Part shown: positions 38,170 to 39,372 of the stretch, one piece after another
How positions within the stretch are numbered: position 1 is the first letter of the stretch
Layout: each line of letters starts with the position of its first letter
Assembly: GCA_019638615.1 (NCBI GenBank)
Contig: JAHBTL010000002.1
Coordinates: 1 to 64,000, forward strand
DNA: 64,000 bases
Direction of reading: 5' to 3'
Source of the DNA: Chitinophagaceae bacterium
GTDB lineage: Bacteria; Bacteroidota; Bacteroidia; Chitinophagales; Chitinophagaceae
Notes under the pieces: generated by a model
Told to the model about the DNA's origin: nothing
The model's input: the letters and a program-made list of their open reading frames with translations, nothing else
Databases searched by the model: none
Position numbers and translations under genes: made by a program

Positions 38170-38186
38170 CCTTGAAACAATATCTG

Positions 38187-38260
38187 TCGGGAGGACAGGA
38201 TTCGAACCTGCGACCCCCTGGTCCCAAACCAGGTATTCTACCGGGCTGAACTACCTCCCG
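38187..38260 (-). tRNA. tRNA-Pro (anticodon TGG)
   Basis: A 74-nt cloverleaf on the minus strand. The acceptor stem CGGGAGG/CCTCCCG is perfect, with discriminator A. The anticodon stem CCTGG/CCAGG encloses the loop TTTGGGA with anticodon TGG. The T-arm has GGTTCGAATCC. No CCA is encoded. TGG reads Pro codons. The matching prolyl-tRNA synthetase gene is about 23 kb away in this window. Confidence 0.96.
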
Positions 38261-38415: not shown

Positions 38416-38802
38416 ATGAAGTATTCTCACTGGATAGGCCTGGCTGCCGTCCTTTTGGTAGCAATAGGCTGTTTTCAACCCTGGGTAAATATTCCGGGTA
38501 TTTCCAACAAAATAACCGGTATGGATGGCATGGGCACAAACTTTGGCAAACCCGGCAAGCTGCATCTTATTTTTTGCAGCATTGCGGCGGTTCTGTTCAT
38601 CATACCCCGTGTGTGGGCAAAGAGGATCAACTGGGTCTTTTGCGCGTTAGGACTGGCCTGGGCTGTACGTAATTTTTTATTGTATGCGCGCTGCGAAATG
38701 GGCATCTGTCCTGAACGAGCAATCGGTTTATACCTTGTATTATTCGCTTCTATCGTGATGCTGGCAGCAGCGTTATTCCCGGATATGAAGGTGAAGAAAT
38801 AA
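38416..38802 (+). CDS. Hypothetical four-helix membrane protein
   Basis: A 128-aa protein with membrane segments at about 6-24, 52-64, 71-88 and 103-122. The loop between the first two is polar (NIPGISNKITGMDGMGTNFGKPG). It has a Cys pair in ARCEMGICP. I do not recognise the family. It is the only gene between tRNA-Pro and the small SD-containing transcript. Confidence 0.6.
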   Translation: MKYSHWIGLAAVLLVAIGCFQPWVNIPGISNKITGMDGMGTNFGKPGKLHLIFCSIAAVLFIIPRVWAKRINWVFCALGLAWAVRNFLLYARCEMGICPERAIGLYLVLFASIVMLAAALFPDMKVKK

Positions 38803-38849: not shown

Positions 38850-39125
38850 TTTATCGTTTTGGGTTTATGGTTACAGGTTACAAGTTCCAGGGGGGATTTG
38901 AGATTTGATGGCTGTTGCAGGTTACAGATTTTTAGTGTATGGTTTATCGTTTCTTATCATTCCAAGAGAACAAACAATAAGATATACAAAGAGCCGTAGG
39001 CTCGGTCTCATATCGGTGCGTGGGATTTCAATCTCGCGTATATAAGAGCTGCACAGAGAGTTTGTGGTTTATGGTTTGTTATTTATAGTTAAACCACAAA
39101 CTAAAAACTATCAACTACAAACGCT
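38850..39125. repeat. Interspersed AT-rich repeat sequences (GTTTATGG/GGTTACAGGTT type)
   Basis: The stretch contains GGGTTTATGGTTACAGGTT around 38861-38885 and AGTTTGTGGTTTATGG with AACCACAAACTAAAAACTA around 39058-39110. The latter two can pair with each other. The same family appears at 43320-43470, 44815-44885 and 57760-58080. A copy of AGCCGTAGGCTCGG lies near 38992. Confidence 0.5.
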
Positions 39126-39129
39126 TCAT

Positions 39130-39182
39130 ACAAAACAAAAAAGCCACCGGCATTTAAGCGGCGGCTTCCGACATTGCTGTCG
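39130..39182 (-). terminator. Small GNRA hairpin plus intrinsic terminator of the short SD transcript
   Basis: Going down the minus strand, CGACA-GCAA-TGTCG (39169-39182) is a 5-bp hairpin with a GNRA-type tetraloop. It is followed by AAGCCGCCG...CGGTGGCTT (39141-39167) with nine pairs including one G-U, and then TTTTTTG. This ends a transcript coming from 39290. Confidence 0.75.
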
Positions 39183-39208
39183 CAGATTATTTTTATGGAG
39201 TAGCCCGG

Positions 39209-39256
39209 TTACGCGATAATAACCGAAGGCGTCCATGATTTATCTGTAGATTGCAT
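39209..39256 (-). CDS. 15-codon ORF with a perfect Shine-Dalgarno sequence
   Basis: On the minus strand AAAAGGAGGT (39261-39270) stands 4 nt before ATG CAA TCT..., giving the peptide MQSTDKSWTPSVIIA and TAA. Such strong SD sequences are exceptional in Bacteroidota, whose ribosomes largely mask the anti-SD. The last codons overlap a hairpin (CGGTTA...TAACCG). A -7-like TATCTTTA (39291-39298) precedes it and a GNRA hairpin and terminator follow, so the whole unit is about 170 nt with no larger ORF. It may be a leader-like peptide, a dual-function sRNA or an SD decoy (inference). Confidence 0.6.
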   Translation of the reverse strand: MQSTDKSWTPSVIIA

Positions 39257-39260
39257 GAAT

Positions 39261-39298
39261 ACCTCCTTTTTATTTGGTGAATTGGAATCTTAAAGATA
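39261..39298 (-). promoter_or_regulatory. Shine-Dalgarno and candidate promoter of the 15-codon ORF
   Basis: The SD AAAAGGAGGT lies at 39261-39270 and TATCTTTA, one base from TAnnTTTG, at 39291-39298. A good -33 TTTG at 19-21 bp is not clear, so the promoter is weaker evidence than the SD. Confidence 0.5.
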
Positions 39299-39372
39299 GG
39301 AAATGCAAAACAAAAAATCATTACTTTTTTTACTGATCACTCTACTCCGAAGCGCTTATCTTTACCTAAAAA

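Follow-up and report, generated by a model that had tools for sequence, protein, structure and literature searches.

The window, that is, the whole 64,000-nt stretch of DNA analysed, carries on its minus strand, at 39135-39298, a compact unit in which a promoter-like box, a perfect Shine-Dalgarno (SD) sequence AAAAGGAGGT, a 15-codon open reading frame (ORF), hairpins and a terminator can be read from the sequence. The -7-type promoter element TATCTTTA (39291-39298) is followed by a conserved 5' box, TTCACCAAATA (39271-39281), which occurs as TCA[ACT]CAAA in 127 of 138 copies and, judging by the position of the promoter, probably lies at or near the transcription start; the SD (39261-39270, with the conserved core AAAGGAGGTAT), a gap of 4 nt (ATTC) and the ATG (39256-39254) come next, TTCACCAAATAAAAAGGAGGTATTC forming the short leader between the TATCTTTA box and the ATG at 39256. 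The ORF MQSTDKSWTPSVIIA (39209-39256), supported by a test of frame conservation, closes with TAA (39211-39209), and beyond it lie the P4 hairpin CGACA-GCAA-UGUCG (39169-39182) and an intrinsic terminator (39135-39165), recognised by folding as a hairpin at 39165-39143 followed by a T run at 39142-39135. This minus-strand layout, from the promoter box, the SD and its 4-nt spacing to the ORF, the hairpins and the terminator, had been proposed in the initial annotation and was confirmed from the sequence. As a whole, the 165-nt strand folds at -46.8 kcal/mol against -34.4 kcal/mol in shuffled sequences (z -3.2), with 2 of 200 shuffles equalling it.

The bare motif AGGAGG-N4-10-ATG is not rare in the window, where 5 matches were found against 2.6 expected and 13 of 100 shuffles reach 5, and over the 7.18-Mb genome AAAGGAGGT-N3-8-ATG occurs 5 times against 20 for the reversed pattern. 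The earlier observation that no other gene of the window has such an SD agrees with a check by pattern only, in which the other four AGGAGG matches were without AAAGGAGGT. A known RNA family was ruled out with Rfam 15: over the whole window, tRNA-Pro (TGG) at 38186-38260 on the minus strand was the sole match at gathering score, the 11 matches within 39100-39330 at E<=10 were every one far below gathering score, and six diverse loci of the element gave no match. Among the article titles listed from the open-licence PMC literature, none described the element. Just past the terminator, the region 39040-39122 is AT-rich and contains short near-repeats of the aaccataaaccacaaac type; two other genomes of the genus show weak, short matches to its part at 39100-39122.

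By blastn, 9 of the 12 genomes from the genus, its own among them, gave strong matches (E 2.4e-22 or better), and a pattern composed of SD, ATG and TCATGG, with 3 mismatches allowed at most, located 60 places in 59 of 294 genomes of the family, with 0 occurrences of the reversed control pattern among the matches listed for the family genomes. A covariance model of 35 copies gave full matches in 68 of the 294 family genomes, spread over 33 of 101 genera; a second model, made from 101 matches, returned the same 68 genomes, its weakest full match scoring 72.5 bits, the next best being a 37.7-bit fragment at a contig end and the remainder staying below 29 bits, and with this model no intermediate or decayed copies were seen in the family genomes. 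Conservation in relatives, on which the initial annotation had staked its reading, extends to the SD, the ORF and the hairpins alike; chance occurrence is ruled out by the genus and family matches together, and it is this conservation, not the rarity of the motif, that places the element beyond chance. Within the family sample, the element is either intact or undetected and mostly present as a single copy, and its patchy occurrence (68 of 294) indicates that it is not essential. A class-wide draw with stricter filters matched in 2 of 395 genomes, both in the same family (Chitinophagaceae), and an exact-pattern scan of a named collection gave at least 119 stretches; the matches listed (80 titles) are of Chitinophagaceae type, being Chitinophaga, Niastella, Segetibacter, Puia, Pinibacter, Ferruginibacter and the like (Chitinophaga pinensis and Niastella yeongjuensis among them), together with MAGs labelled Chitinophagaceae, Chitinophagales, Sphingobacteriales, Bacteroidota/Bacteroidetes or 'bacterium', and one title labelled Beijerinckiaceae. 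Viral contigs gave 0 matches to the exact pattern, by which phage cargo is ruled out.

Comparisons between copies were made on 138 distinct sequences from whole genomes, fetched regions and genome contigs, some of them from close relatives, which were obtained from 139 pattern-found stretches after leaving out one (L270), a chance match in another reading frame; the copies are related, so the counts are not independent events. Since membership of this set required an exact SD and, within a limited distance, CATGG, the invariance of these two motifs is claimed from the 69 family copies only. Two intact copies with near-identical ORFs stand 960 bases apart on the same strand at L056/L082 (G222:C1:4223028-4224088).

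Of the 138 copies, 130 have a promoter-like TAnnTT[TC] 20-70 nt ahead of the ATG, against 55 of 138 shuffled stretches; the box ends 28-29 nt before the ATG in 96 of the copies and, at a longer distance, 35 nt before it in the window copy. From the 28-29-nt spacing, transcription would be expected to start close to the conserved TCACCAAA. Further upstream, TTG or TTTT was found in only 64 of 138 copies, from which the -33 part of the promoter must be regarded as weak. At the other end, 132 of the 138 copies have a terminator-like site no more than 95 nt from the CTG, and the 32 nt after the CTG (the P4 region) fold below -3 kcal/mol in all 138, a result that may take in letters of the terminator. 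In a survey of 41 neighbourhoods of 8-9 kb each, one per locus and with the window included, no conserved neighbour was found, the largest gene clusters covering 4 of the 41 loci and several of these being just close relatives (L085-L087); the next ORF was convergent in 18 of the 41 and co-directional in 23, and the likely gene closest to the element in the window (38416-38802) lies on the opposite strand. The lack of a shared neighbour, together with the 18 convergent cases, argues that no particular adjacent gene is controlled, and the sequence data point to an autonomous small transcript of ~150 nt that has its own promoter and terminator and no partner gene.

The reading frame is protected, as indicated by the 126 copies of usual spacing (106 distinct sequences, unselected for ORF length), in which codons 2-14 contain 1 in-frame stop against 28.3 expected from column shuffles (the lowest of 500 being 18), and the other two frames contain 25 against 22.6 and 80 against 78.9; the sole premature stop belongs to a MAG (L231), 1 of the 138 copies. 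The peptide is 13-15 residues long in 137 of 138 copies and ends at TAA, TAG or TGA. The distance from ATG to TGG is 21 nt in 60 of the 69 family copies, where it is fixed by the search pattern, and in the 9 copies found by the model alone it is 18 nt in 8 (one codon less) and 20 nt in 1. In copies with the 20-nt distance (L134/L128 and L285), the loss of one base near codon 2 is compensated by the gain of one base after CATGG, which restores the frame and leaves codons 2-8 altered and PSVGIA and the stop codon kept. The stretch from the stop codon to the CTG varies in single-base steps, with 22-31 nt in 135 of 138 copies. When ORFs differing by a single base were paired, 12 of the 14 differences were nonsynonymous, the expected synonymous share being 26% (14 pairs only), and the peptide is, in consequence, only loosely constrained. 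Val12, kept in 94 of 99 distinct 15-codon ORFs, and position 14, which is mostly I/F/L/V and thus mostly hydrophobic, are the best candidates for constraint at the protein level; judged by eye, the peptides are polar, with Lys/Asp/Ser/Thr. A functional peptide had been envisaged beforehand, with a check of whether SD and peptide are both conserved: the SD is present in 69 of 69 family copies and the frame is protected, but the amino acids drift, by which the case for a functional peptide is weakened.

Two competing folds are predicted for the RNA. The first, S2, is a long hairpin composed of P1 (CAGAU:AUCUG, 39242-39246 with 39183-39187), P2 (UGGA:UCCA, 39232-39235 with 39196-39199; 97.9% of cells paired) and P3 (GCC-CGGUUAU:GUAACCG-GGC), the last being in the window the hairpin GCC-UU-CGGUUAU ... 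GUAACCGGGC at 39203-39230, which takes in codons 10-15 and has the stop codon in its 3' arm. In 35 copies, 90.5% of the S2 cells pair and the covariation score is 0.156 against 0.089, a value reached by 0 of 500 shuffles, with further pair types not above those of shuffles (17 against 16.5). In a larger set of 101 rows, 97 of them distinct, for which the alignment followed the model and hence favours the structure, double changes were found in 14 of 19 pairs, including all 10 pairs of P3, and the score was 0.246 against 0.120 (0 of 500 shuffles). Three letters that S2 leaves unpaired are conserved over the 101 rows, C48 and A49 in 100 each and U61 in 94; for C48 and A49 this is in part a product of the search pattern by which most rows were gathered. 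In the second fold, S1, the strand GGAGGUAUUCAUG (39254-39266), with the SD and the start codon, pairs with CAUGGAxGCCUUC, that is, with CAUGGACGCCUUC at 39225-39237, a switching strand shared with P2 and P3; the SD and the AUG are buried in codons 7-11, and P2 and the lower part of P3 are excluded. The S1 cells are paired at 98.2% in 35 copies and at 97.2% in 97 rows, against 47-58% after a one-base slide, and RNAalifold by its own choice returned S1 with the upper part of P3 instead of P1-P2-P3, which brought the competition between the folds to light. Because the SD side never varies, S1 is without double-sided covariation and the shuffle control is uninformative for it; on the opposite side, CATGG is found in 68 of 69 family copies, the remaining one having TATGG, which still wobble-pairs.

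When folded alone, the 5' half takes the S1 structure in 35 of 35 copies. Calculated for every second of the 138 copies (69 sequences), its energy is -13.6 against -7.7 kcal/mol in dinucleotide shuffles (56 of 69 at z<-2), with the SD unpaired at 0.05 against 0.32; against shuffles in which the pairing of the downstream fold is preserved, the values are -14.1 and -8.2 kcal/mol, with z<-2 in 43 of 69. With S1 forced through its AUG:CAU pairs or S2 through its CAG:CUG pairs, the median difference between the folds is 1.3 kcal/mol and does not exceed 3 in 112 of 137 copies, S1 being of lower energy in 82 and S2 in 48 of these 137. When the full core is treated as an ensemble, the SD remains mostly paired (mean unpaired 0.23 against 0.38 in shuffles), partly with other letters, so that S2 does not simply free it, and the start site is predicted to be mainly closed. 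By these calculations, the energies of which come from a thermodynamic model, the RNA is bistable in silico, with two near-isoenergetic and mutually exclusive folds.

Two aberrant loci may be mentioned in relation to the folds. In a MAG (L243, 1114-1571, minus strand), an intact copy is followed by two tandem copies of the 3' half that have neither promoter nor SD, both of them having lost P1 and one also part of P3; decay of this type, in what is a single case, would be expected if the folds matter only in a transcribed unit bearing an SD. At L032:1487-1598, an unrelated hairpin of greater length takes the place of the upper part of P3, and the peptide ends in LPAFAA, with the SD, the ORF length, P1 and P2 kept.

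The SD provides the link of the element to the ribosome. Its core AAAGGAGGTAT is found in 69 of 69 full family copies (the 60 pattern-found places and 9 more), and its duplex with the 16S tail is calculated at -13.6 kcal/mol, against -13.4 for the SD of the genome's own rpsU, which is located on another contig and also has AAAGGAGGT; in these calculations, the 16S tail was taken from general knowledge and the energies were obtained by ViennaRNA, not by the program of PMC9976891. In the Bacteroidia, as described in passages of PMC9976891, the anti-SD is held in a pocket of bS21, bS18 and bS6, and ribosomes without bS21 prefer mRNAs with a strong SD; the same passages describe rpsU as typically the sole gene with such a strong SD in Flavobacteriales, and about half of the Chitinophagales as meeting the criteria for rpsU. 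The pairing of the element SD falls below the threshold of about -13 kcal/mol given there for an extended SD, and its product is a 15-residue peptide and not bS21. Since this pairing is as strong as that of the own rpsU, a connection with free anti-SD is plausible, and the element would be the second strong-SD mRNA in its genome. The strength of the rpsU SD did not differ between 44 genomes with and 46 without the element (p=0.63), with medians of -13.15 and -12.5 and values under -13 in 22 of 44 and 18 of 46, respectively; the comparison covers 44 of 68 genomes with and 46 of 226 without the element and is not a random draw, 26 of the latter being best Pfam matches and 20 hand-picked, many from genera that also have the element. 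By this comparison, the idea that the element replaces a lost rpsU SD is ruled out. The SD of the element is invariant and that of rpsU varies between relatives, an invariance that fits a double duty in anti-SD pairing and in S1 pairing. In some rpsU leaders of the family (e.g., L335, L341 and L304), ACC or GCC was noticed by eye a few bases before AAGGAGGTA, and a small hairpin hiding the SD could form there.

Taken together, these data may be interpreted as a self-gated, SD-dependent micro-mRNA that would be read by ribosomes with a free anti-SD, as a sensor or a decoy. S1 would form first during transcription, with the start site closed and translation off; a 30S subunit whose anti-SD is exposed, for example one without bS21, would then capture the SD, keep the RNA open and translate the 15 codons, and P2-P3 would fold ahead of the ribosome. 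Termination would take place inside P3, and S1 may re-close behind the ribosome. Because the frame is kept while the amino acids drift, translation itself, in a ribosome-state sensor or a harmless decoy that occupies such ribosomes, would be a likelier function than the peptide; this reading as a whole, with ribosome occupancy as the output, is given slightly less than even confidence, and the alternative outputs may be the peptide, or an RNA region exposed by translation. The stronger claim, that the element is a dedicated ribosome-state RNA with binding and translation by exposed-anti-SD ribosomes (bS21-lacking or immature 30S) as its sole job, is put forward tentatively, and that such an RNA serves as a sensor or a safe decoy, with a self-refolding gate limiting the loading, in SD-poor bacteria should likewise be taken as possible rather than probable.

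A different reading places the function in the peptide, a micropeptide of 13-15 residues (M-x-S-T-x-x-S-W-x-P-S-V-x-I-A) acting in trans, with the folds regulating only its synthesis; the protected frame, the length kept in 137 of 138 copies, the C-terminal PSVGIA retained in the two frameshifted copies and Val12 in 94 of 99 distinct ORFs are all in its favour. Nevertheless, 12 of 14 single-step changes are nonsynonymous, and in L128 and L285 Trp8 and its neighbours are gone and yet the DNA letters CATGG stay, which implies that these letters serve the RNA, so this reading is considered doubtful. Alternatively, the transcript could act in trans by base pairing, as a dual-function small RNA in which translation toggles the fold and exposes, for instance, the A-rich strand before AUCUG. 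The promoter (130 of 138) and the terminator (132 of 138) of an autonomous transcript, the lack of a conserved neighbour, the strong covariation and the conservation of the A-rich strand would all suit such a role, which is nevertheless unlikely, the best-conserved unpaired letters being those of the SD leader itself.

Two further systems share part of this architecture, and both are very improbable as explanations. A leader-peptide attenuator of a downstream gene, already disfavoured, has the same anatomy of short ORF, alternative hairpins and terminator, and in 23 of the 41 neighbourhoods the next ORF is co-directional; this candidate was rejected since no conserved same-strand downstream gene was found in the 41 neighbourhoods, the next ORF being convergent in 18, no gene being common to more than 4 loci and the nearest likely gene of the window (38416-38802) lying on the other strand. 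Similarly, a hok-like type I toxin mRNA with a sequestered SD is suggested by the hiding of SD and start codon in an early fold and by the alternative fold of similar energy, but instead of a hydrophobic, membrane-active product, the element encodes peptides that are polar, as judged by eye, and drifting.

The element also bears on a wider question. Bacteroidota retain a perfect anti-SD yet hide it, and for the purpose of this retained anti-SD beyond rpsU control the element offers a direct handle, which can be deleted, recoded and footprinted. This handle rests on a predicted stand-alone transcript, family-wide, with an invariant perfect SD, a frame that has to remain open and a changeable peptide. 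With 15 codons and a structured RNA, it also represents a class of genes likely to be missed by routine annotation, and it may be a case of selection on translation itself.

Among the systems known from general background, dual-function small RNAs such as SgrS/SgrT and SR1/SR1P resemble the element in being small, autonomous and structured RNAs with a short ORF, but in the element the peptide sequence is not clearly selected and the SD itself belongs to the predicted switch. The leader-peptide attenuators of the trp, erm and speF type likewise have a short ORF over alternative hairpins and a terminator, whereas the element is without a conserved downstream gene, and the mRNAs of hok-type type I toxins have the SD and the start codon buried in an early fold, as in the element, the peptide of which is, in contrast, polar and drifting. 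The rpsU (bS21) mRNA with its SD-dependent autoregulation, as described in passages of PMC9976891, shares with the element an exceptionally strong SD, both being found in a lineage where the anti-SD is hidden; nevertheless, the element encodes no ribosomal protein, is a structured RNA of 15 codons that can hide its own SD and has its own terminator, and its SD is invariant, whereas that of rpsU varies between relatives.
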